Made by a program: the position numbers and the translations under genes | Assembly: GCA_016283985.1 (NCBI GenBank) | Contig: JAEENZ010000175.1 | Location: 1-44,187, forward strand | Reading direction: 5' to 3' | Source of the DNA: Bacteroidales bacterium | Lineage (GTDB): Bacteria > Bacteroidota > Bacteroidia > Bacteroidales > UBA932 | Length of the DNA stretch: 44,187 bases | In this document: piece by piece, positions 29,782 through 44,187 of the stretch | How positions within the stretch are numbered: position 1 is the first letter of the stretch | How the letters are laid out: each line of letters opens with the position of its first letter | Notes under the pieces: model-generated | What the model was told of the DNA's origin: nothing | The model's database searches: none | Seen by the model: the letters and a program-made list of their open reading frames with translations, nothing else

Positions 29782-31776
29782 ATGAAATCTCATCCGCTCC
29801 GAACCATTGTTTTAGCATTGGCCTGCTCTTCCTTTTGTCTTGAAATGAATGCCCAGCGCATCGTATGTGACGAAACCTGCAAACTGGCCGATGCTCCGCC
29901 GGCAACAGCGGCTGCTGTTTCCCCTAAACCATCACAGACAAAACCAGCCGCATCCACAAAGAAATCGACCGTTACTGCGGCACCTGTAGTAAAGGAGGAG
30001 CCCGGCTTTGCCGTAGTCAGTCCCGTCGGCCGATCCTCTGTGAAGATGATTCAGCAGGCTCCGAGGCTCCAGACGCTGGACGGAAAGACCATTGCCGTGG
30101 TTGGCGTAAGTTTTATGACAAGAGTTACCCATCCTGAAATCAAACGGCTCATTCTAGAGAATCATCCGTCAGCAAAGGTCATCCTCCTGGATGAAATCGG
30201 CATCGCCGGTCCTTATCCAGCCCCTGGTGTGACACGAAAGGCAAAAGAAGAGTTCCAGGCAAAACTGAAGTCGATGGGAGTAGATGCCGTTATCTCCGGA
30301 AATGGAGGCTGTGGCCTTTGCACCCCCAAGGAGACTGGTTCCTGCATCGCAGCCGAGTATCTTGGCATCCCTTCCGTGATTATCGCGGGACCCGGCTTTG
30401 TGGACCAGGCTAAATATACGGCTCTCAACAACGGCGTTCCCGTGATGCGGGTGGCGCAGTACCCGGGTGCATTCGCAACCCATACGGCCGATGAACTGAT
30501 TAAGAATACGCGCGAAATCCTTTGGCCGCAGATCGTGGAGGCGCTCACCAAGCCCATTAGCGAAGAAGAACGTTCGGCCGGCATTTCCGGAAACAAGGGT
30601 GATATCCGTGACGATGCCTTCTTCGGAACGTTGGATGAAGTCAATGAATACTTTAAGGAAATGAAGTGGTCCGACGGTCTCCCCATCGTTCCGCCAACGT
30701 TCGAGAAAGTGGAGTCTTTCTTGAAATTTGCCGATATGAAGTGGGATGAGACCGTCGCCATTCTCCCCATCGCGCACAGGGACACGAAGGTCTGGCACGT
30801 GGCCGTGAATGCCGTTATGGCTGGCTGCAAACCGGAATACATGCCTATTCTGATTGCGCTGACGAAGGGCCTTGGAGACGGAAATTTCCGCCGAACCCTT
30901 GCCAGTACGCACGCCTGGATTCCCTATAGCTGGCTCAATGGACCGGTGGCACGGCAACTCGGCATAGACAGTGGTCAGGGGCAAATCAACGAGGCTGCCA
31001 ATATGGCCATCGGCCGTTTCATGAATTTGGCTTTGATGAATCTTTGTGGCTATTACGTAAAGCAGGACAGGATGGGCACCTTCGGCTATCCGATGTCCTG
31101 GTGTATGGTGGAGGACGATGCCGCCTGCCTTCGTATCGGCTGGAAGCCATATCACGTCCGCAAAGGATTCGACATCAACGACAATACCATCACCCTGGGT
31201 TCGACGCTGCTTTGGGGCAATAATATGGCACCCTCTACGACCAATCCCCAGAAGGTGATGGAACTCATAGCCTGGGACATCAGCGAGCGCAGTCAGTTCG
31301 CCCTGGGCAGCGGCCGCCAGTTCACCTTCCGCACAATCTTGATGACGGAACCGGTGGCGGCCATTCTTGCTGGGAGATACAGGAGTCCGGAAGCACTGGA
31401 GAAGGTCCTGATTGATGAATCCCGCCGCCCGGTGAAAGAAAGGGCTTTTGCCAACTATTATGCAAATCCGGGCGGAGCCAAAGACGGCGGCCAGCATAAT
31501 CTAAGGCAGTATCAGGGCCATATCCGCAAGGATGAAGGTGGCGAAATGACACCCACCCCGGAATGGTACGATTCTCCCGAAAGCGAGCAGATGACCATCC
31601 CCACCATGAAGCGCGGAATGACAGCCTTCCTCATCACCGGTGATGCGGCCCGCAACAAGGTGCAGACTATGCCTGGAGGTGGATATGCTACTGTCAAGAT
31701 TGAACTGCCCCGTGCCTGGGACAAGCTGATGGCGGAACTTGGGTATCAGCCACTTAAAGAGTATTACATTGATTAG
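29782..31776 (+). CDS. Exported two-domain protein: UGSC-like domain fused to a conserved second domain
   Basis: 664 residues. Signal peptide (ends EMNAQ), a short Cys pair (IVCDETCKL), an Ala/Pro/Lys linker (about 37-72), then domain 1 (about 78-270): LQTLDGKTIAVVGVSF, ISGNGGCGLCTPKETGSC, GIPSVIIAGPGFV, YPGAFATHTADELI. This closely resembles the UGSC (seleno)protein family, with Cys177 (TGT codon) at the selenocysteine position, giving a CGLC motif. Domain 2 (about 285-664) starts MKWSDGLPIVPPTFEKVE and has VNAVMAGCKPEYMPILIALTKGL; I recall such proteins as separate neighbours of UGSC genes, but that is memory, not shown here. A second copy begins at 43432. Periplasmic thiol chemistry is an inference. 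Confidence 0.6.
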   Translation: MKSHPLRTIVLALACSSFCLEMNAQRIVCDETCKLADAPPATAAAVSPKPSQTKPAASTKKSTVTAAPVVKEEPGFAVVSPVGRSSVKMIQQAPRLQTLDGKTIAVVGVSFMTRVTHPEIKRLILENHPSAKVILLDEIGIAGPYPAPGVTRKAKEEFQAKLKSMGVDAVISGNGGCGLCTPKETGSCIAAEYLGIPSVIIAGPGFVDQAKYTALNNGVPVMRVAQYPGAFATHTADELIKNTREILWPQIVEALTKPISEEERSAGISGNKGDIRDDAFFGTLDEVNEYFKEMKWSDGLPIVPPTFEKVESFLKFADMKWDETVAILPIAHRDTKVWHVAVNAVMAGCKPEYMPILIALTKGLGDGNFRRTLASTHAWIPYSWLNGPVARQLGIDSGQGQINEAANMAIGRFMNLALMNLCGYYVKQDRMGTFGYPMSWCMVEDDAACLRIGWKPYHVRKGFDINDNTITLGSTLLWGNNMAPSTTNPQKVMELIAWDISERSQFALGSGRQFTFRTILMTEPVAAILAGRYRSPEALEKVLIDESRRPVKERAFANYYANPGGAKDGGQHNLRQYQGHIRKDEGGEMTPTPEWYDSPESEQMTIPTMKRGMTAFLITGDAARNKVQTMPGGGYATVKIELPRAWDKLMAELGYQPLKEYYID

Positions 31777-32709: not shown

Positions 32710-32898
32710 CACACGACCACGCGTGACATAGCCCGTGAAGCGGGAATCAACTTGAGCAATCTGTACCACTACGGGCGCTTCATGACTCCCTTGGAAGCCA
32801 AAAAAATAATCGCAACCGGGCCCTGGCAGATTACACCAAAGAGCCCCGGCACACAGGGCACCGGGGCTGACAGAAAGAAAAGAACGGTTATCGTTTAA
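32710..32898 (+). pseudogene. Fragment of a TetR-type regulator (degenerate)
   Basis: The frame from 32710 to the TAA at 32896-32898 reads TTTRDIAREAGINLSNLYHYG, which is the recognition helix region of TetR-family repressors (helix 2-turn-helix 3), then loses similarity. The frame is preceded by an in-frame TGA and lacks the N-terminal helix 1 and the ligand domain. Another frame just upstream (about 32592-32735) reads like the end of a helical protein. The region 32445-32887 therefore looks like decayed regulator sequence. It overlaps the terminator and the 3' end of the gene on the other strand. Confidence 0.45.
32842..32868 (-). terminator. Strong GC-rich hairpin after the M49-like/DASS operon
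   Basis: AGCCCCGG (32861-32868 on the minus strand) pairs with CCGGGGCT (32842-32849) around 11 nt, 19 bases beyond the stop at 32888. The following minus-strand sequence is CTTTGG, only a short U-tract, so terminator efficiency is uncertain. Confidence 0.55.
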
Positions 32899-34492
32899 AC
32901 TCGAACCGTATGTCGGCGGGGATATTCTCAAGAGCCAGGCACCGGCGGTCCGCATCGTAGTCGGCGTTGCGCTTGGAGTATTGGGCTTCAAACTCTTCGG
33001 CAGCCGCTTTGTCCCCGGTGGCCTGAAGCTTGAGCACCAGGGCGGTAAGGTCTGAAAGGGCGGACTCCATCTTCCCCAGATCCAGCGAGTACTGGTTGGA
33101 TGCCTTGCGATTGTAAGCTCCTGCCTGCCCCAGATAGTTGTAGATGATGATATTGGCACGGCCAAGTGCCGAGTTCTCACCGAAGCGTTCGGAGCGGAGA
33201 AGGGAGGCAAAGAAGGTGACAAGGGCGTCTTCCTTGGTAAAGAGGTGATGGATGTCGTAGTGGTTCTGGAGTTTGCACACAAGAAGAACTCCGGCAGCAT
33301 TGGCTTTCACTTCTTCAAGGGTTTGAGCAACATTGCCGAGGGCTTCTTCCACACTGCCCATGCCATTCACGGTTTCTTTCACGCCCAGGCCATGAGCCAC
33401 TTCTCGGAAAGCGATGTTCCATAAGAAAGCGTCCGAAGACAGGTGCTCGGCGGCATCGGATTCCAGCAGTGTTTCACCGGTAGGAGCGACGATATGGTTG
33501 TACTTGGCTCTGATGATGTTTTCCAGCAGGATAGTGCGGGTGCCGCGGTCGCGCTGGACATCCGTATCGAAGGGCAGGTTGAGCGCAATGACTTTCACGC
33601 CGGCATTGGCCTTTCCGGCATAGTAGAGGGCGTCACAGGAGAAGATGTTGGAGCCGGTACCGGGCTGGAAGGTCTTGTAGGCCGGGTCTCCGGGAAGATC
33701 CTCCTGGAATTCACCGATGCGGGAGACATACTGCATCAGTTCCTGGGTGTGGGCCTGGTTCTTCAGCAGGACAAAGGCTTCGTAGGAGCGCTTGATGCCC
33801 AGCAGCTGGTCGTCCGTCACTTCGTTGGGGCCGATGACAAGGTCCATCTTGCTGTCGTACATGTCCAGCCAGGCCAGAGAACTTTCATAGTATTGATCGG
33901 TCTTAAGGGCATCGGCCTTGCTCAGCAGATACTTGGCTACGCTGGGCTTGATGGTGATGTCGGCAGCAGCCTTCAGGTAGTTGCCAATCTTGTCGATATG
34001 CGCTTTGTAGGCGTCGTGGTACCAGACGGCTTCCAGGGAGCCGTCAGAGGTGCGGCGGACGAGGGTGTAAGGGCTGTTCTTGTCGGGATTGTCCCAGGCA
34101 TCGAACTCGTCCTTTGTCATGTCCGCCGGATAGAAACCGGCGCTGGGAAGCGCATCGGCATAACCTTCCACGAAGGATTTACCGGTGGTGCGGTCCCATG
34201 GGCCGTAGTTGATTTCGGCGAAGGTCTTCTGGACAGGGTCTGTGATGCCGTCCAGGAGGACCTGCTTGTCGCCGAAGTACTGTTCCCAGTAGATAGCGTC
34301 CACCTCGTCGGCGGCGAAGCGGTAGAGATTCAGCACCTCCTTGCCGTTGTCGGTGATGCCGCTGAGGTCGGGAGCTTCGATGGGTACCACGGCGTAATCT
34401 GCTACGCTGCGGGTAAACGGGGACTTGGTTTCATTGCAGGAGACCACTGCTATCAATGCGAGAGTGGTCAGGATCAAATTCTTCTTATTCAT
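32888..34492 (-). CDS. M49 (dipeptidyl-peptidase III)-like lipoprotein with altered zinc motif (paralogue B)
   Basis: 534 residues. Lipobox signal MNKKNLILTTLALIAVVSC. Family features include APDLSGITDNGKEVLNLYRFAADEVDAIYWEQYF, DSKMDLVIGPNEVTDDQLLGIKRSYEAFV and LEEVKANAAGVL, matching Bacteroidota M49-type Zn-hydrolases. Where active relatives have H-E-x-x-H followed by GLG, this protein has R363-E364-V-A-H367-GLG, so the first zinc-binding His is Arg. It is therefore probably inactive or altered. Last gene of an operon with a DASS transporter and paralogue A; the terminator lies at 32842-32868. Confidence 0.75.
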   Translation of the reverse strand: MNKKNLILTTLALIAVVSCNETKSPFTRSVADYAVVPIEAPDLSGITDNGKEVLNLYRFAADEVDAIYWEQYFGDKQVLLDGITDPVQKTFAEINYGPWDRTTGKSFVEGYADALPSAGFYPADMTKDEFDAWDNPDKNSPYTLVRRTSDGSLEAVWYHDAYKAHIDKIGNYLKAAADITIKPSVAKYLLSKADALKTDQYYESSLAWLDMYDSKMDLVIGPNEVTDDQLLGIKRSYEAFVLLKNQAHTQELMQYVSRIGEFQEDLPGDPAYKTFQPGTGSNIFSCDALYYAGKANAGVKVIALNLPFDTDVQRDRGTRTILLENIIRAKYNHIVAPTGETLLESDAAEHLSSDAFLWNIAFREVAHGLGVKETVNGMGSVEEALGNVAQTLEEVKANAAGVLLVCKLQNHYDIHHLFTKEDALVTFFASLLRSERFGENSALGRANIIIYNYLGQAGAYNRKASNQYSLDLGKMESALSDLTALVLKLQATGDKAAAEEFEAQYSKRNADYDADRRCLALENIPADIRFEFKR

Positions 34493-36045: not shown

Positions 36046-37641
36046 TTATTCGTAGGTGAAGCGGATATCCACGGGGATACCGGCATTCTCCAGAACGCGT
36101 TTGTCGGACAGGCTCTCCGGTCCGGCTACACCATACTTCGTGAGGGCAGCGTGGGCAGCCTCAATGTCGCCGTGGGCCTGGATGTCCAGTATCTTGGCGC
36201 CCAGGGTCTCGAGGGCCTGCCAGGTTTTGTCGTAGTCGATGCTGTAGCGGCCTGAAGGGTTCCAGACAATGGCCTTGCTTTCCAGCAGGTAGTTATACAC
36301 GACGATATTGGCGATGCCGGTGGGATCGGCCGCGCCGAAACGGGTGGAACGGATGGTGTTGGTGACGAAGGTGGTGAGCACGTCTTCTTTCTGGAAGAGG
36401 GCGGAGATGTTGTATGCCTCGGCCTCCTGGGCACAGAGCCAGGCACCCAGCACATTGGACTTCGCCTTCTCCAGGGCAAGGGCTTCATTTCCCAGGGCTT
36501 CGGCTACGGTGCCCTTTCCGTTCACGGTCTCTTTCACGCCCAGGCCTTTCGCTATCTCGCGGAAGACGATGAGCCAGTAGAAGGCGCTGGCGTCTACATG
36601 GGGCTGGTGGACTTCCTCAAGGAGGGCTCTGCCCACCGGGTGGACCGTGCGGTTGAACTTCTCGCGGATGATGTTGTCGAAGATGATGGTGCGGGTGCCC
36701 AGTTCCTCCTGTACCTTTGCATCATAAGGGAAGTTGATGCCGATGACTTTATAGCCGGCATTGGTGTAGCCGCTGCAATACAGGACGTTGCAGGAGAAGA
36801 TGTCGGACTCTGCACCGGGGACAAAATTATGATTGGCGGAATCACCCGGAAGCATCTTCTGATACTCCGGCATCCGTGCCGCCAGGGCGTTGAGTTCTTC
36901 GGTGCGCTGGAGGTTTTTCAGGAGGACGTAGGCTCCATAAGAGGCCTTGGTGCCATATAGGCCGTCGTCAACCGTCTCGATGGGACCGAGCACGAGGTCC
37001 ATCTTGCTGTCGTTCATTTCCAGCCAGGCCTTGTTGCTCCCGTAGTAGTCATCGGTCTTGAGACCTTCAATCAAGTGGAGCAGATAATGCCTCACGCTCT
37101 CCTTGATGGTGACGTCGGCGGCACGGCCCAGGTAGCCTTCAATCTTGGCGATGAACTGGGCATAGGCGTCGTGATACCAGACGGTTTTCAGTGCATCTCC
37201 GTCACGTACGACCAAGGTGTAGGGACTCTGCTTGTCAGGGGCGTTAAAGGCGGTATATTCCGCTTCGGTCATATCGGCAGGATAGAATCCGGCACCGGCG
37301 GGTTTGGGGCCATATCCCTTCAGGAAGGCTTTCCCGTCGATGCGGTCCCAGGGGCCGTAGTTGATGGAGGCGTACTGCCTTTCCGCTTCCGTGGAGAGCG
37401 AGGAAAGGAACTCCTCTTTGGGACCGAAATACTGCTGCCAGTAGATTTTGTCCACTTCATCGGCGGCCATCCGGTACAGTTTCAAGACTTCTTTTCCGTT
37501 GTCGGTAATGCCGGTCAGGTCCGGTGCGGGGATGGTTACCTGGGCATAATTCTCTACGAGACGGTTTACATTTACGCGCTCCTGGGTGCAGGAAATGGCA
37601 ACCAGGGCGAGGATTGCCCATACGGTTGTAGCTTTTTTCAT
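36046..37641 (-). CDS. M49 (dipeptidyl-peptidase III)-like lipoprotein lacking both zinc His (paralogue A)
   Basis: 531 residues from the ATG at 37641, giving a lipobox signal MKKATTVWAILALVAISC. An upstream in-frame start at 37686 is rejected because it precedes the promoter box. It aligns along its full length with paralogue B (APDLTGITDNGKEVLKLYRMAADEVDKIYWQQYFG, DSKMDLVLGPIETVDDGLYG). The zinc motif is R361-E362-I-A-K365-GLG, so both His ligands are replaced while the catalytic Glu and the downstream LEKAKSN Glu remain. A metal-free binding protein is likely. First gene of the LysR-divergent operon. Confidence 0.75.
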   Translation of the reverse strand: MKKATTVWAILALVAISCTQERVNVNRLVENYAQVTIPAPDLTGITDNGKEVLKLYRMAADEVDKIYWQQYFGPKEEFLSSLSTEAERQYASINYGPWDRIDGKAFLKGYGPKPAGAGFYPADMTEAEYTAFNAPDKQSPYTLVVRDGDALKTVWYHDAYAQFIAKIEGYLGRAADVTIKESVRHYLLHLIEGLKTDDYYGSNKAWLEMNDSKMDLVLGPIETVDDGLYGTKASYGAYVLLKNLQRTEELNALAARMPEYQKMLPGDSANHNFVPGAESDIFSCNVLYCSGYTNAGYKVIGINFPYDAKVQEELGTRTIIFDNIIREKFNRTVHPVGRALLEEVHQPHVDASAFYWLIVFREIAKGLGVKETVNGKGTVAEALGNEALALEKAKSNVLGAWLCAQEAEAYNISALFQKEDVLTTFVTNTIRSTRFGAADPTGIANIVVYNYLLESKAIVWNPSGRYSIDYDKTWQALETLGAKILDIQAHGDIEAAHAALTKYGVAGPESLSDKRVLENAGIPVDIRFTYE

Positions 37642-37664
37642 AACGTTGTTTTCTTTCTGTCCCG

Positions 37665-37672
37665 CAAAGGTA
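37665..37672 (-). promoter_or_regulatory. -7 promoter box TACCTTTG of the M49-like/DASS operon
   Basis: Exact TAnnTTTG on the minus strand, 23 bases before the start codon at 37641, inside the 137-bp spacer shared with the LysR gene. Confidence 0.6.
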
Positions 37673-37690
37673 GGTATTAAGTGCATCCAC

Positions 37691-37778: not shown

Positions 37779-38672
37779 ATGGAATTACGGCAGTTGAAAT
37801 ATTTTGTGGAAGTGGGTCGGCTGGGCAGCTTTTCCCTGGCTTCCAAATCGCTTTTTATCACCCAGAGCACCATTTCCCAACAGATCCAGAAACTGGAGGA
37901 AGAACTGGGCGTGGAACTGCTTACCCGGGATACACGTCACGTTACCCTCAGCGATTACGGCGAGCAGTTTCTCCCTTGCGCCGTTCAGGTTTTGGAGGAG
38001 GCCCGGGCCGGTGCGGAACGAATCAAGGATGTGAAAGCCCTGAAAGTAGGGACGCTCAGCGTAGGTGCGACGTATTCTTTCGGCCCGCTGCTCAAACAGA
38101 CCGTCCTGGACTTTTTCAGAAAGTTCCCGCGTATCAGGATGGATCTGGTAATCACATCCAAAGAAGATTTACGGCAGAAGTTGCTGGACAGGGATCTGGA
38201 TGTGGCCCTTACTTATAAATCGCCGCTCGGAGATGACCGTATCGAGTCCCATCTGCTGTTTCAGAGCCGACTTTGCCTGGTCGGGCGTGTCGGAGAGTTG
38301 AAGGGAGTGGGTAAGGAAGTATCGGTCCAGGACCTCTCCCGCTTCCCGCTTGCCTTGCCGTCCAAGGGTCTTCAGGCGCGTGACACGCTGGAGGATGTCC
38401 TGTTTGCTCAGAACGTAAATCTGGACATCCGCTTGGAAATCAACAGTGTCCGTTCCCTCCTTGACCTTGTGGGCAGCAGCCCGCTGGTGACCATCCTGTC
38501 GGAAGAAGCCATCAACCAGGTGCATGGGTTCGAGGCTGTTCCCATAGGCCACCCCGATGGCCGCATGGACGGCTGCTACCACTACCTGAAAGGTAGCTAT
38601 CACAAGAATGCAGCGCAGAAGTTCGTGGAGTTCCTGAAGGAGAACAATTCCTTTAATCAGACTTTGGGGTAA
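37779..38672 (+). CDS. LysR-family transcriptional regulator
   Basis: 297 residues from the ATG at 37779, which places the classic MELRQLKYFVEVGRLGSFSLASKSLFITQSTISQQIQKLEEELGVELLTRD winged-helix domain at the very N-terminus. The effector domain follows (about 90-297; LSVGATYSFGPLLKQTVLDFFRKFP). Divergent from the M49-like/DASS operon with a palindrome in the spacer, so it most likely controls that operon in response to the transported anion or peptide. Confidence 0.92.
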   Translation: MELRQLKYFVEVGRLGSFSLASKSLFITQSTISQQIQKLEEELGVELLTRDTRHVTLSDYGEQFLPCAVQVLEEARAGAERIKDVKALKVGTLSVGATYSFGPLLKQTVLDFFRKFPRIRMDLVITSKEDLRQKLLDRDLDVALTYKSPLGDDRIESHLLFQSRLCLVGRVGELKGVGKEVSVQDLSRFPLALPSKGLQARDTLEDVLFAQNVNLDIRLEINSVRSLLDLVGSSPLVTILSEEAINQVHGFEAVPIGHPDGRMDGCYHYLKGSYHKNAAQKFVEFLKENNSFNQTLG

Positions 38673-38734
38673 AAGTCGCTTCGCTCCCGTAAAAATCGCT
38701 AAAAATGGGGATTTCGCGCGTGCGCGCAATGTCT

Positions 38735-38742
38735 TACCTTTG
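38735..38742 (+). promoter_or_regulatory. -7 promoter box TACCTTTG (distal)
   Basis: Consensus match preceded by a GC-rich alternating tract (cgcgcgtgcgcgc). It lies exactly 100 bases before a second identical box at 38835; no open frame begins directly after it, so it may produce a leader RNA. A small hairpin TCCTGA/TCAGGA follows at about 38763-38783. Confidence 0.4.
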
Positions 38743-38834
38743 TATAATCAATAGGCTTCATATCCTGATTTTCCGTTTCAGGAGCCATTTTAAGCATCAG
38801 CAAAATTGGTAAGTGAAAAGTGAAAAGGAGGTTA

Positions 38835-38842
38835 TACCTTTG
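38835..38842 (+). promoter_or_regulatory. -7 promoter box TACCTTTG (proximal)
   Basis: Consensus match 18 bases before the ATG of the small peptide gene at 38861. Confidence 0.5.
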
Positions 38843-38860
38843 CACCGTAATCACTGTACC

Positions 38861-39007
38861 ATGAAGCAAAAATATCACAGCCCGCAAACCGAGCTCATCC
38901 TAATTCATTCAGAATCGGGGATCCTCGCAGGTTCAATAAATCAAGACAGCAATCCTGTAATCGACGCCGCCGAAGGCGATACCGGTTACTGGGGAGAGTG
39001 GTTTTAA
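38861..39007 (+). CDS. 48-residue peptide of a small Bacteroidota family
   Basis: Starts MKQKYHSPQTELILIHSESG and ends with an acidic aromatic tail (GYWGEWF). Small proteins that begin M-K-x-x-Y-x-x-P and are followed by a fimbrillin-type gene are common in Bacteroidales; function unknown. The promoter box is 18 bases upstream and the lipoprotein gene starts 19 bases after its stop, so the pair is probably co-transcribed. Confidence 0.6.
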   Translation: MKQKYHSPQTELILIHSESGILAGSINQDSNPVIDAAEGDTGYWGEWF

Positions 39008-39026
39008 CGACAAAACTCTACGCGCA

Positions 39027-40607
39027 ATGAAAACAACTCTTGCATACATCACCTTCCTTGCGGCCGTTACCGGCTGCACAACCGGCATTATTCCGGACAT
39101 ACAGGGAAACACATCCATTACCGTAGAACTCCCGGAGACCAAGGCCCTCATTAACGATACGGGCGCCGGTTCCGCATCCTTCTCCTGGGAAAACGGAGAC
39201 GAAATCGGCGTTGTCGTCGACGGCAAGTATTACCGTTTCACACTCTCCGGAAAGACTGGAGGACAGACAGGAACGTTCACCGCAGATCTTCCTTCGGGCA
39301 GCAGCATCGAGGACGGCGCCGCGGTAGCCTTTCCGTATATCGCCGATGATTATAATGAATCGACCGGAGTATTCAGCCTTACATATCCGACCGAATACAC
39401 GTCGACGAAAGACGGCGACTTCCGCCACCGCTGGGCCGGAACGCTCTCAAAAGACGGCAGCGGCAAGTATCACGCCCTGCTCTCGCACCAGACGGCCATC
39501 TTGCGCGTCACATATGACAACGTGCCTGCTGAAGCAACCGCGGTCCGGCTTACCGCAGACAAGAATCTGGCTGGAGAAAGCAAATCCATTACCACCACAT
39601 TTTCGTGGCACCAGAAGACCATGAACTTCTATTTCCCCGTTCCCGAAGGGACTTATCACAGTTTCTCGCTGATACTTTTGAATGGCAACGACGAGATTGA
39701 CGGGACTACAAAAACTCTATCAGGCAGCGATATGGTATTGGAGACAGGCAAAATCTACCGTACCCCCATAGCGGACCGTGGCCCCAAAAAGATTCTGGTG
39801 GCATATTTTTCCTTTACGAACAATACCAAGGCAATCGCCGAGTCGATGGCCGGTGTTCTTGGTGCTGACCTTTATCAGATTACACCCGATGAAGCTTATA
39901 CTTCCGAGAACAACAATTATTACGACTCATCAACCAGGGCTTATCAAGAGCAGTACGGTCCCGCATCCGCCCGTCCTGCAATCAAGACAACGCTGGCAAA
40001 TACCGATTATGACATAGTCCTTTTGGGATTTCCCATTTGGTATGGTAAAGTGCCCCGGCTGATTCTCACATTTCTGGACACATACAACTTCTCCGGCAAG
40101 ACGATTGTTCCATTCTGCACCTCTGGCAGTTCCGGAATCGACGCCTCTCAGACAGAATTACAAAGCACTTTCAGTACCATTAAATGGAAAAAAGGATCCC
40201 GTTTGAACGGCTATTCCGCAGAACAACTGAAATCCTGGCTTGCTGCATTAGGCATAAAGAACTCTCCTATCAGAATCGCCATTGGAAATACAGTATTCTC
40301 TGCCGAGCTGGCCAACAATGCAACAGCCAAGGAGTTTGATGCCTTGCTGCCGATGACGTTAGAAATGACGGAACTGAACGGAAACGAGAAGTACAAGTAT
40401 CTTGATACCACATTACCCTCCAATGCCTCCTGCCCCGGAACTATTAATGCCGGAGACATCCTTCTGTATGGAAACAATTGTGTGGTCGTTTTCTACAAGA
40501 CGTTCAATACCGCCTACAGTTATACAAAGATTGGACGGATAACCGACCCCGGTTCTCTTGCCAGCTCTTTGGGCCCGGGTGACGTGTCGGTTCAGTTCGG
40601 ACACTGA
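39027..40607 (+). CDS. Lipoprotein fusing a fimbrillin-like domain, a flavodoxin and a cyclophilin-like domain
   Basis: 526 residues. Lipobox MKTTLAYITFLAAVTGC. Residues about 25-248 are a fimbrillin-like beta-sandwich (SITVELPETKALIND, SFSWENGDEIGVVVDGKYYRF, LETGKIYRTPI). Residues about 253-408 are a flavodoxin: KKILVAYFSFTNNTKAIAE (FMN phosphate loop), YDIVLLGFPIWYGKVPRLI, KTIVPFCTSGSSGIDAS. Residues about 412-525 match the cyclophilin-like fold family, IRIAIGNTVFSAELANN, PGTINAGDILLYGNN, YTKIGRITD. Flavodoxin plus cyclophilin-like fusions are known; the surface lipoprotein front end is the unusual part. A flavin-dependent role outside the cytoplasm is inferred. Confidence 0.8.
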   Translation: MKTTLAYITFLAAVTGCTTGIIPDIQGNTSITVELPETKALINDTGAGSASFSWENGDEIGVVVDGKYYRFTLSGKTGGQTGTFTADLPSGSSIEDGAAVAFPYIADDYNESTGVFSLTYPTEYTSTKDGDFRHRWAGTLSKDGSGKYHALLSHQTAILRVTYDNVPAEATAVRLTADKNLAGESKSITTTFSWHQKTMNFYFPVPEGTYHSFSLILLNGNDEIDGTTKTLSGSDMVLETGKIYRTPIADRGPKKILVAYFSFTNNTKAIAESMAGVLGADLYQITPDEAYTSENNNYYDSSTRAYQEQYGPASARPAIKTTLANTDYDIVLLGFPIWYGKVPRLILTFLDTYNFSGKTIVPFCTSGSSGIDASQTELQSTFSTIKWKKGSRLNGYSAEQLKSWLAALGIKNSPIRIAIGNTVFSAELANNATAKEFDALLPMTLEMTELNGNEKYKYLDTTLPSNASCPGTINAGDILLYGNNCVVVFYKTFNTAYSYTKIGRITDPGSLASSLGPGDVSVQFGH

Positions 40608-40644
40608 CCTTATTATAAATCGAAATGATTATATTTACAGAGAA

Positions 40645-41547
40645 ATGGAAAAGGATATCATTCAGATAAATAGCATCGACACCTACTGCAAATACTGTGG
40701 GTTCGAAGTGCTGCACCCGTTGGTGACGGTTGTCAATATGGCAGAAGCGGTGAGAAATTACCCGGAATGCAAGCTTAACTTCGGGGTATATTCCATTTGG
40801 CTCAAGCAGGGAGCCGGCTGCAGCATCAAATACGGTCGGCGGGAGTATGACTACCAGGAAGGAACCGTTGTGAGTTTTGCTCCGGGCCAGGTTGTCCAGG
40901 TAGAGCCCAATGATGGTATGAGCAATTCTTCAATAGGCCTCCTGTTCCATCCGGACCTGATTCACGGCACCTCGCTTGGACGAAAGATTGCCCGCTACAC
41001 CTTCTTTTCCTACGATCAGACGGAAGCCCTGCATCTTTCCGAACGCGAGCGGAATCAATATCTGGCAATAATCGACAGCATCAAGGCAGAGTTGGAACAT
41101 GCAATCGACAAACATAGCCGGGAGCTGCTCTGCGACCATATCGAACTATTGCTAGACATTTGCCTTCGATTCTATGACCGCCAGTTTATCACGCGCTATA
41201 AGGTAAACGTCGACATCCTCGCAGATTTCGAACGCATCTTGAACGCCTATTTCAAAGACGGCCTTGCGGAGCAGAAAGGTTTCCCTACAGTAGCCTGGCT
41301 GGCAGATCGGGTACATCTTTCGGCCAGTTATTTCGGCGATTTGATAAAAAAGGAAACCGGACTGACTGCACAGGAATACATCCAGAACAAGATTGTCACC
41401 CTGTCCAAGCAGGAGCTTCTTGGAACGAATTTGCCTGTATCGGAGATTGCCTATAAGCTGGGCTTTGAATATCCCCAGCATTTCACCCGACTGTTCAAAA
41501 AAGTGACCGGGATGTCTCCCTCTGAATATAGATCATCAATCAATTGA
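40645..41547 (+). CDS. AraC-family transcriptional regulator
   Basis: 300 residues from the ATG at 40645. N-terminal cupin-like sensing domain (YGRREYDYQEGTVVSFAPGQV), then the double helix-turn-helix: WLADRVHLSASYFGDLIKKETGLTAQEYIQNKIV and VSEIAYKLGFEYPQHFTRLFKKVTGMSPSEYR. It stands between the flavodoxin fusion and the hydrolase gene on the same strand and is the likely regulator of this block. The start is only 37 bases after the fusion gene stop; a degenerate TATATTTA lies 14 bases upstream of its ATG. Confidence 0.92.
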   Translation: MEKDIIQINSIDTYCKYCGFEVLHPLVTVVNMAEAVRNYPECKLNFGVYSIWLKQGAGCSIKYGRREYDYQEGTVVSFAPGQVVQVEPNDGMSNSSIGLLFHPDLIHGTSLGRKIARYTFFSYDQTEALHLSERERNQYLAIIDSIKAELEHAIDKHSRELLCDHIELLLDICLRFYDRQFITRYKVNVDILADFERILNAYFKDGLAEQKGFPTVAWLADRVHLSASYFGDLIKKETGLTAQEYIQNKIVTLSKQELLGTNLPVSEIAYKLGFEYPQHFTRLFKKVTGMSPSEYRSSIN

Positions 41548-41553
41548 TTAATA

Positions 41554-42597
41554 ATGAAGTATATAGCATTCATTTCAGCCGCCATTTTGGCTTTTGCCTG
41601 CTGTCAAAACAATAACGAGAATATGAGCACATTGACGCTTACTCGGGAATGGGACAAGACCTTCCCCAAGTCCGAACTGGTGAACCACAGCAAGGTCACC
41701 TTCCATAACCGCTACGGCATCGAGCTGGCGGCCGATATGTATGTCCCGAAAAACGCGGAAGGCAAGCTTCCCGCCATCGCCGTGACAGGCCCCTTCGGCG
41801 CCGTGAAGGAACAGACCAGCGGTCTCTATGCCCAGCATATGGCAGAGCGTGGCTTCCTGACCATTGCATTCGATCCGTCCTATACCGGCGAGTCCGGCGG
41901 CGAGCCCCGTCGGATGGCTTCCCCGGACATCAACACCGAGGACTTCCTGGCGGCGGTGGATTTCCTTTCCACTTGCGACCTGGTCGATCCGGAGCGCATC
42001 GGAATCATCGGCATTTGCGGCTTCGGCGGCATGGCCATCAATGCTGCCGCGCTTGATCCGCGCATCAAAGCCACGGTAACGTCTACGATGTACGATATGA
42101 GCAAGGTGAACGTGGAGGGCTATTTCGCCAGTGAGAACACGCCCGCTCAGCGGATGGAGAAACGCAAGGCTATCGCTGCCCAGCGGACGAAGGACTATGC
42201 ATCAGGCACATACGAGCGTGCTGGCGGCGTAGTCGACCCGCTCCCGGAGGATGCGCCCTGGTTCGTCAAGGATTATCACGCCTATTACAAGTGTCCTCGC
42301 GGCTATCACCCCCGCAGCGGCAACTCCACCGACGGCTGGAACGTTATCGGCTGCCAGAGTTTCCTGAACCAACCCCTCTTGGCCTGGGCAGGTGAAATCG
42401 AGAACCCCGTGCTCCTAATTCACGGCGAGAAGGCTCACAGCCGCTATTTCAGCGAGTACGCCTATAGTCTTCTTACCGGTAGCAACAAGGAACTCCTTAT
42501 CATCCCCGGAGCTGTCCATATCGACCTCTATGATGACGTAGCTGGCGTGATCCCTTACGACAAGATTGAATCCTTCTTCAAAGAGAATCTGAAATAA
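41554..42597 (+). CDS. Alpha/beta hydrolase lipoprotein with Cys nucleophile
   Basis: 347 residues, starting 6 bp after the AraC gene. Signal with lipobox-like AFAC followed by C. Alpha/beta hydrolase fold: LPAIAVTGPFGAVKEQ oxyanion region, AFDPSYTGESGG, nucleophile elbow GICGFGG with Cys155 in place of serine, and a C-terminal His in GAVHIDLYDD; the acid is plausibly in PVLLIHGEKAHSRYF. Cys nucleophiles are known in dienelactone hydrolases. Homologues of this kind often accompany flavodoxin-like and FMN reductase genes. Confidence 0.82.
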   Translation: MKYIAFISAAILAFACCQNNNENMSTLTLTREWDKTFPKSELVNHSKVTFHNRYGIELAADMYVPKNAEGKLPAIAVTGPFGAVKEQTSGLYAQHMAERGFLTIAFDPSYTGESGGEPRRMASPDINTEDFLAAVDFLSTCDLVDPERIGIIGICGFGGMAINAAALDPRIKATVTSTMYDMSKVNVEGYFASENTPAQRMEKRKAIAAQRTKDYASGTYERAGGVVDPLPEDAPWFVKDYHAYYKCPRGYHPRSGNSTDGWNVIGCQSFLNQPLLAWAGEIENPVLLIHGEKAHSRYFSEYAYSLLTGSNKELLIIPGAVHIDLYDDVAGVIPYDKIESFFKENLK

Positions 42598-42616
42598 CTT
42601 CACCGTCGTTGTCATT

Positions 42617-43153
42617 ATGAAAAAAGTTGTGGTTATATCAACCAGCCTACGTCCTGGTTCCAACAGCAATGCATTGGCGGAAAGATTTGCAGAAGGAGCA
42701 AAAGCCGCAGGGCATGAAGTGGAGTTCATCTCCCTGCGCGGTAAGGAAATCAAGTTCTGCATTGGCTGCTTGTCCTGCCAAAAGACCGGCGAGTGCGTTT
42801 TCAAGGATGATGTTCCTGCTATCATGGACAAAGTCCTCAATGCTAATGTAATATGCTGGACGACACCCATCTATTACTATGAGATGTCCGGCCAGATGAA
42901 GACGCTCATCGACCGTATGAATGCGATGTACCCCAAAGATTACAAGTTCAGGGACATCTATCTGCTGACCACGGCGGCCGAGGACGAAGAACACACGCCA
43001 AAGCGTGCCGAGAGCGGCCTGCAAGGCTGGATAGACTGCTATGAAAAAGCAACTCTAAAGAGCCACCTCTTCTGCGGCGGTGTCAATGATCCGCGGGAAA
43101 TCTCCGGCAACACTAAACTGGAAGAGGCGTACGAACTTGGGAAAAGCGTTTAG
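42617..43153 (+). CDS. NAD(P)H-dependent FMN reductase/flavodoxin-like protein
   Basis: 178 residues. FMN-binding loop VVVISTSLRPGSNSNALAERFAEGAKAAGHEVEFI, a cysteine cluster KFCIGCLSCQKTGEC typical of iron-sulfur-flavoprotein-like reductases, and TTPIYYYEMSGQMKTLIDRM. It probably transfers electrons from NAD(P)H to flavin or quinones in the cytoplasm. Last gene of the AraC-hydrolase-reductase group, followed by a terminator at 43227-43267. Confidence 0.88.
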   Translation: MKKVVVISTSLRPGSNSNALAERFAEGAKAAGHEVEFISLRGKEIKFCIGCLSCQKTGECVFKDDVPAIMDKVLNANVICWTTPIYYYEMSGQMKTLIDRMNAMYPKDYKFRDIYLLTTAAEDEEHTPKRAESGLQGWIDCYEKATLKSHLFCGGVNDPREISGNTKLEEAYELGKSV

Positions 43154-43226
43154 TTGGTTAATTCGGATTCGGTGTCGTCCTGTCGACACACACACCTCCA
43201 GAATCAACTGGAAACATACAAAAGAT

Positions 43227-43267
43227 AAATGCTAACCGATTTGTAATTAATCAGTTAGCATTTTTAA
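43227..43267 (+). terminator. Rho-independent terminator
   Basis: AAATGCTAAC (43227-43236) pairs perfectly with GTTAGCATTT (43254-43263); an inner GATT/AATC extends the stem, and a T-run followed by AAATAG ends it. It closes the redox block 73 bases after the reductase stop. A smaller hairpin GTGTCG/CGACAC lies at 43172-43189. The remainder of the 278-base spacer to 43432 holds only decayed sequence. Confidence 0.85.
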
Positions 43268-43431
43268 ATAGTAGACCAAACGGGTAAATTCTCGAACCTT
43301 CTGGAGGACCTTCTGAAGGTTGAAAGATTTTCACAATATATTGAAAATCAGGAAAATAATAATATGATAGAAGCGGATTTAACCTTTGCTTGTTTTTTGC
43401 ATCTAATGTTTAGACTCAATTCCAAAACCGT

Positions 43432-44187
43432 ATGAAATCTCATCCGCTTCGAACCATTGTTATAGCATTAGCTTGCTCTTTCTTTTGTCTTGAAATGAAT
43501 GCCCAGCGCATCGTATGTGACGAAACCTGCAAACTGGCTGATGCTCCGCCGGCAACTGCTTCTGCCGTTACCACGAAACCGGCACAGACAAAACCAACTG
43601 CTTCCACAAAGAAAACGACCTCAACTCCGGTATCTGTAGTAAAGGAAGAACCCGGCTTTGCCGTAGTCAGTCCCGTCGGCAGGTCATCTGTAGAACTGAT
43701 TCAACAGGCTCCGAGGCTCCAGACACTGGACGGCAAGACCATTGCTGTGGTTGGTGTGAGCTTTATGACAAGTGTTACCCACCCGGAAATCAAACGGCTC
43801 ATTCTGGCGCATTATCCATCGGCAAAAGTGATCCTGTTGGATGAGATCGGAATCGCCGGACCTTATCCGGCACCTGGCGTCACTCGCAAAGCCAAGGAAG
43901 AGTTTCAAGCCAATCTCAAGGAGATGGGTGTGGATGCCGTGATTTCCGGCAACGGCGGCTGCGGACTTTGCACGCCTAAAGAGACAGGGTCTTGCATCGC
44001 CGCTGAGTATCTGGGTATTCCTTCGGTAATTATCGCCGGCCCCGGCTTCGTGGACCAGGCCAAATATACGGCCCTCAACAATGGTGTTCCCGTGATGCGG
44101 GTGGCGCAGTATCCGGGGGCATTTGCTACTCATACTGCCGATGAACTGATTAAGAATACGCGCGAGATTCTATGGCCGCAGATTGTG
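43432..44187 (+). CDS. Second copy of the UGSC-like two-domain exported protein, cut by the window edge
   Basis: 252 codons without a stop from the ATG at 43432 to the edge. The product is clearly a close paralogue of the protein at 29782-31776: same signal peptide, IVCDETCKL, linker with diverged composition, DGKTIAVVGVSFMT, GNGGCGLCTPKETGSC and the YPGAFATHTADEL end. Many differences are synonymous, so both copies appear to be under selection. The upstream 50 bases are also similar (TTTTTTGCATCTAAT versus TGTTTTGCATCTAAT), so promoter and gene were duplicated together. Confidence 0.7.
   Translation, partial: MKSHPLRTIVIALACSFFCLEMNAQRIVCDETCKLADAPPATASAVTTKPAQTKPTASTKKTTSTPVSVVKEEPGFAVVSPVGRSSVELIQQAPRLQTLDGKTIAVVGVSFMTSVTHPEIKRLILAHYPSAKVILLDEIGIAGPYPAPGVTRKAKEEFQANLKEMGVDAVISGNGGCGLCTPKETGSCIAAEYLGIPSVIIAGPGFVDQAKYTALNNGVPVMRVAQYPGAFATHTADELIKNTREILWPQIV

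Follow-up and report, generated by a model that had tools for sequence, protein, structure and literature searches.

We describe here a gene of a Bacteroidales bacterium (GTDB lineage UBA932) whose product joins, in a single polypeptide, a fimbria-like stalk, a domain of a flavin-binding type and a cyclophilin-like domain. The gene lies in contig JAEENZ010000175.1 of assembly GCA_016283985.1, a stretch of 44,187 nucleotides that we refer to as the window, at positions 39027..40607 of the + strand, and from the list of open reading frames (ORFs) and Pfam it encodes a lipoprotein of 526 amino acids with a fimbrillin-like, a Flavodoxin_4 and a Cyclophil_like2 domain.

Domain architecture and recurrence

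All parts of the gene are read from the + strand. The sequence begins with a lipoprotein signal peptide (39027..39077) with the lipobox cysteine at residue 17, and this is followed by a predicted fimbrillin-like beta-sandwich stalk (residues 31-250, 39117..39776), assigned from a structure model with VIA-align and Foldseek. The Flavodoxin_4 domain (PF12682; residues 255-406, 39789..40244) was matched by Pfam with an E value of 1.2e-41 and 142 bits against a cut-off of 24, over profile positions 1-153 of 155, and it contains the stretches FSFTNNT, GFPIWYGK and TSGSSGI. The Cyclophil_like2 domain (PF18050; residues 417-524, 40275..40598) was matched with an E value of 4.8e-30 and 104 bits against a cut-off of 22.7, and also by Foldseek to structure 1zx8. 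For residues 1-250, no Pfam family scored above its cut-off and no fimbrillin model appeared up to an E value of 1.

Flavodoxins made up most of the VIA-align matches to the full-length model, so the first domain was modelled alone. The resulting model (predicted local distance difference test, pLDDT, 88.4; predicted template modelling score, pTM, 0.83) matched Bacteroidales fimbrial proteins in VIA-align and, more weakly, in Foldseek, and it has the two-part beta-sandwich fold of the fimbrillins. The lipoprotein signal of type V fimbrillins was likewise found in 59 of 59 proteins in which the first domain is complete. Compared with the Bacteroidales fimbrial and adhesin lipoproteins of known structure (3sy6, 3t2l, 3ufi, 4k4k, 4eps and 4h40), however, the domain is short (about 220 amino acids), has no fimbrillin Pfam match and forms the N-terminal part of other proteins. 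Fimbrillin-like domains are thus used as the lipid-anchored N-terminal portion of proteins that otherwise have little in common, and the label 'fimbrillin' consequently needs care in Bacteroidales.

A protein search with the 526-residue sequence returned 418 matches, of which the 120 clusters listed were scored with domain profiles built from a 22-sequence alignment; all cluster counts refer to these 120. The three domains occurred together in 68 clusters and the first two only in 6, while 34 had the flavodoxin and cyclophilin-like domains without the first, 9 had two flavodoxins only and 3 the first domain only. With N, F and C for the three domains in the order of the window protein, the arrangements were N-F-C in 66 clusters, N-F-F-C in 2, F-C in 22, C-F in 10 and F-F-C-F in 2, and thus the flavodoxin and cyclophilin-like domains remain paired, whichever their order. 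The pair was also found in a lipoprotein of Erysipelotrichaceae (L003). The window copy shares with other Cyclophil_like2 proteins a clear Pfam match and differs from them in sitting behind a fimbrillin-like stalk.

A contig from a metagenome-assembled genome (MAG), that of Bacteroidales bacterium isolate Tb.RUG.210 (genome G001), was 99.98% identical to window positions 38554-44187 and matched the window exactly across the fusion gene; we take RUG in the isolate name to stand for rumen genomes. A locus in a separate MAG, L002 (genome G002), encodes the same architecture at 67% identity, making G002 the second genome with the fusion. In the genomes sampled, the full-length fusion was detected in 1 of 199 of the same family, 1 of 151 of the same genus and 1 of 395 of the phylum, always in G001, although these searches scored no more than 3 to 9 candidates in each genome and may have missed the fusion. 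Since the join recurs in 68 of the 120 clusters and in L002, the architecture is not an assembly join, and a chimera was ruled out. A first-pass annotation, made from the letters of the window alone, had proposed the lipid-anchored three-domain make-up and a search for it in other genomes. The make-up was confirmed: Pfam accounts for the second and third domains, the modelled fold for the first, and cysteine 17, together with its counterparts in all 59 homologue clusters examined, for the anchoring signal. In a search of the titles and beginnings of abstracts, we could not find an open-licence paper describing this combination of domains.

Flavin binding, flavinylation motifs and export

The nearest solved relatives of the Flavodoxin_4 domain are the Bacteroides structures 3klb, 4ici and 4j8p, which are 36-40% identical over the domain (E values 2.7e-35 to 9.5e-34) and have the same loops; 3klb is titled as a complex with flavin mononucleotide (FMN). 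The residue numbering of 4ici (32-190) and 4j8p (23-178) suggests that N-terminal signal segments had been removed from these two. All three are single-domain chains, whereas the window protein adds the stalk and the cyclophilin-like domain, and where it has IWYGK they have WW at the equivalent place. GFPIWYGK was invariant in 22 of 22 aligned sequences, and in the alignment the FSFTNNT-type loops and IWYGK were conserved, so the earlier statement that the FMN-loop sequences are intact holds. Of the 70 flavodoxin matches in three-domain proteins, 62 had YGK or YAK after the tryptophan and 8 fell outside the pattern used. From these likenesses we infer that the domain probably binds FMN.

Flavodoxin_4 proteins with covalently attached flavin have been described, mainly from Firmicutes, and carry, between strand 1 and helix 1, an inserted segment with the attachment motif (PMC11334425); according to the same paper, extracytosolic flavodoxins show signs of flavinylation and cytosolic ones do not. 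In the accessible portion of PMC8238504 PF12682 goes unmentioned, and the flavodoxin text available from PMC10434189 concerns FldA and PFOR. The ApbE-flavinylated extracytosolic proteins belong to the same Pfam family as the window protein and are exported like it, but they have the insertion and the motif and it has neither. The motif, D-x-x-[STA]-[GAS]-A-[ST] searched for anywhere in the protein, was absent from all 68 three-domain proteins. The fetched loci gave 74 distinct flavodoxin domains, of which 4 had the motif when 60 residues upstream were added, and 0 had it within the profile match alone, which may begin after the insertion. Three of the four were insertions in Lachnospiraceae/Eubacterium records (L006, L010 and L014) and the fourth (L058) was a linker before the domain; the three insertions indicate that such motifs can be detected by this test. 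As positive controls, DAITGAT or DAISGAT was present in 3 of the 5 FMN_bind loci of G001 and G002 (L138, L139 and L142), each genome having one ApbE match, and DATTSAS was present in the inserted flavodoxin of proteins P0079 and P0081. These two proteins contain three flavodoxin domains per polypeptide, with the flavinylation-type insertion in the middle one only. P0086 had a single, chance-like motif match outside the flavodoxin.

Flavinylation through the first domain was also considered, from the stretch INDSGSGAAS that resembles an ApbE site by eye. The strict pattern was absent in 68 of 68 proteins, a looser one matched just two, P0021 and P0056, and elsewhere in the sequence, and the stretch is also present in relatives without a flavodoxin; this candidate was rejected.

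Export seems to be widespread in this branch of Flavodoxin_4. Under a loosened lipobox rule, a lipobox-like cysteine was present in all 59 homologue clusters whose first domain is complete (a stricter rule gave 40 of 68); the remaining 9 of the 68 three-domain clusters, with first-domain matches below 200 amino acids (fragments or odd starts), were omitted from this count and from that of surface signals. A Flavodoxin_4 gene was found at an E value of 1e-15 or better in 53 of 119 genomes of the same bacterial family. In 29 of 30 such family loci, which were the best matches and not a random choice, inspection by eye showed a signal peptide, either of the lipoprotein type or an ordinary one, the exception being L111; one of the 29 is the fusion itself in G001. 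The automatic lipoprotein label overlooked ordinary signal peptides and mislabelled some loci. Some other relatives have the flavodoxin alongside PF00395 or PF02368, which we take to be SLH and Big_2, or after lipoprotein signals. It follows from both observations that predicted export is common in this branch, and the premise of the first-pass annotation, that a flavodoxin outside the cytoplasm is a surprise, does not stand for this family. In this sample, an exported Flavodoxin_4 protein lacking the motif appears to be the rule in this bacterial family, contrary to the printed generalization. This makes the view that covalent attachment retains the flavin testable, for in such proteins FMN would be held otherwise or the domain would have a different job.

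The surface signal of lipoproteins (lipoprotein export signal, LES) is given in the available text of PMC5080379 as K-(D/E)2 or Q-A-(D/E)2, with SDDDD in B. fragilis. Its core, two adjacent acidic residues at positions +2 to +6, was found in 0 of the 59 clusters whose first domain is complete, although such signals were defined in other genera and their absence does not exclude surface exposure here; single acidic residues after the lipid-bearing cysteine are common in these proteins. The suggested placement at the cell surface as such thus gained no support.

Gene neighbourhood and proposed function

The fusion gene is the second of five + strand genes in a tight run, with gaps of 19, 37, 6 and 19 nucleotides. 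A 48-amino-acid ORF (38861..39007) precedes it, and it is followed by an AraC-family regulator (40645..41547; Pfam HTH_18), an alpha/beta hydrolase with the lipoprotein-type signal ILAFACC (41554..42597; Pfam Peptidase_S15/AXE1/DLH) and an FMN_red protein (42617..43153; Pfam E value 1.6e-23). The last has no evident signal peptide and contains CX2CX2CX5C, a spacing that we take to be that of iron-sulfur flavoproteins. A relative of the AraC protein (36-38% identity) adjoins a single exported Flavodoxin_4 gene in 5 of 6 genus or family loci (L129-L133); none was found in the sixth, the 5.5-kb contig L134, nor in L128, L136 and L137. Eight chosen genes of these AraC-linked regions were scanned with Pfam, giving aldo/keto reductases and amidohydrolases in L131 and L132 and ABM and CMD/cupin families in L130 and L131, some of the scanned genes starting with signal peptides as judged by eye. 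L132 also has an 80-amino-acid FMN_red stretch that is 75% identical. A conserved operon around the fusion itself was looked for and not found, the neighbours in L002 being different.

Following these analyses, we tentatively favour the view that the protein is an envelope lipoprotein, in which a stalk would hold a non-covalent FMN-dependent reductase acting most likely on quinones or small aromatic electrophiles. The lipid anchor would place it in the envelope, probably in the outer membrane, and the stalk would keep the Flavodoxin_4 domain with its FMN, and the cyclophilin-like domain, outside the cytoplasm; the latter may form part of a site for a small molecule or a partner. The protein would be made within an AraC-linked set of redox genes, and electrons might come from periplasmic donors or from reduced flavin crossing the inner membrane. 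The kind of substrate is suggested by the neighbouring families (aldo/keto reductase, amidohydrolase, ABM, CMD/cupin), whose chemistry we presume from general knowledge of them. Perhaps the AraC-linked exported Flavodoxin_4, ABM, CMD/cupin and hydrolase sets form an envelope flavin redox pathway of Bacteroidales for such electrophiles that works without ApbE-linked flavin, with the stalked fusion as its membrane-anchored form; this broader idea is possible but doubtful. If true, it would contradict the printed rule that extracytosolic members are flavinylated and unflavinylated ones cytosolic.

Several observations weigh against a reductase of this kind. The full-length structure model is modest (pLDDT 74, pTM 0.50), so that any arrangement of the domains read from it would be tentative. 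Flavinylation has been argued to prevent the loss of flavin outside the cytosol (PMC11334425, in its available text). Of the 29 loci with export signals, 12 (L099-L110) have an in-frame methionine right where the flavodoxin domain begins, which makes a second, cytosolic form possible there; no such methionine occurs in the window's three-domain protein. Finally, the genome of L002, represented also by L135, has no AraC relative at the latter locus, and a scan of eight neighbours showed no obvious redox gene.

Electron transfer, proposed by the first-pass annotation, is plausible from the sequence, and the protein might then be a carrier, an exported flavodoxin shuttling electrons from an inner-membrane donor such as the FMN_bind subunits of Nqr or Rnf to an acceptor in the outer membrane or at the surface. 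The Flavodoxin_4 match and its conserved loops would suit this, as would the motif-bearing FMN_bind proteins and the ApbE match of G001 and G002. We nevertheless consider a carrier rather unlikely, since cytochrome, FMN_bind and membrane electron-transfer genes are all missing from the five-gene run, the neighbours are hydrolase- or reductase-like and the surface signal is absent; on general reasoning, the invariant lysine of WYGK would also favour a flavin potential above that of a low-potential carrier. The neighbourhood speaks more for an FMN reductase than for a protein that only carries electrons.

The protein might instead capture FMN or another small molecule for uptake or sensing, with no redox turnover. 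The lack of a covalent attachment motif would agree with this, and the available text of PMC6143338 describes surface lipoproteins of Bacteroides that capture nutrients such as vitamin B12. However, the adjacent genes scanned, in a window that is annotated in part, included no TonB-dependent transporter, and the run includes a flavin reductase, so that we regard simple capture as improbable. A fimbrial component, whose first domain would polymerize or cap a type V fimbria and display the flavodoxin at the tip or base, as had been suggested initially, appears very unlikely in spite of the fimbrillin-like fold and signal. The neighbours that were scanned, both in the window and in L002, included no fimbrial gene, and no flavodoxin is listed in 13 of 82 first-domain relatives, 12 of which are not obvious fragments.

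Other fusions of exported Flavodoxin_4 were seen along the way. L124 encodes a CMD-cupin-Flavodoxin_4 protein with a signal peptide, and a fusion of the same three families lies in L131 (10050-11639), with the flavodoxin last in the former and first in the latter. Eight proteins (P0099, P0101, P0102, P0105-P0107, P0109 and P0110) are lipoprotein-like and join cyclophilin-like and Flavodoxin_4 domains to PF00248, an aldo/keto reductase, so that an NADPH-type enzyme seems to be exported. Short aldo/keto-reductase-like stubs precede the Flavodoxin_4 lipoprotein in L130 (near 8016, seen in L033) and in L134 (1079-1840), and a full-length reductase-like ORF occupies this position in L129, L131, L132 and L133 (Pfam-scanned in L131 and L132 only).

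The upstream small ORF and other observations

The 48-amino-acid ORF ending 19 nucleotides before the fusion gene belongs to a family of peptides encoded upstream of lipoprotein genes. It precedes all four first-domain genes initially compared (window, L002, L034 and L063) and is absent before the seven Flavodoxin_4 genes without that domain that were checked (L025, L033, L062 and L064-L067). Of 121 genomes of the genus, 38 encode similar peptides at an E value of 0.01. The family (window 38861-39007 and L144-L172) comprises peptides of about 37-70 amino acids with Y.SP..E......L..S near the start and no evident signal peptide. With a lipobox rule slightly looser again, a lipobox ORF lay within 250 nucleotides downstream in 29 of the 30 peptide loci read, the window included and L161 having none. 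Within 60 nucleotides, the figure was 27 of 29 peptides (window excluded) versus 13 of 322 other small ORFs of the same loci. A fimbrillin-like sequence pattern was present in 14 of the 29 proteins encoded after the peptides. A search of the open-licence literature found no paper on a small protein upstream of a fimbrillin.

Elsewhere in the window, two UGSC-family genes with signal peptides (29782-31776 and 43432-44187) lie about 12 kb apart and encode proteins that are 95% identical; the second runs off the window end and continues in the G001 contig (L001, 4879-6870). Two lipoproteins (32888-34492 and 36046-37686) that seem related by eye flank a DASS-type anion symporter, and the second lipoprotein has a Peptidase_M49 match of 28 bits.
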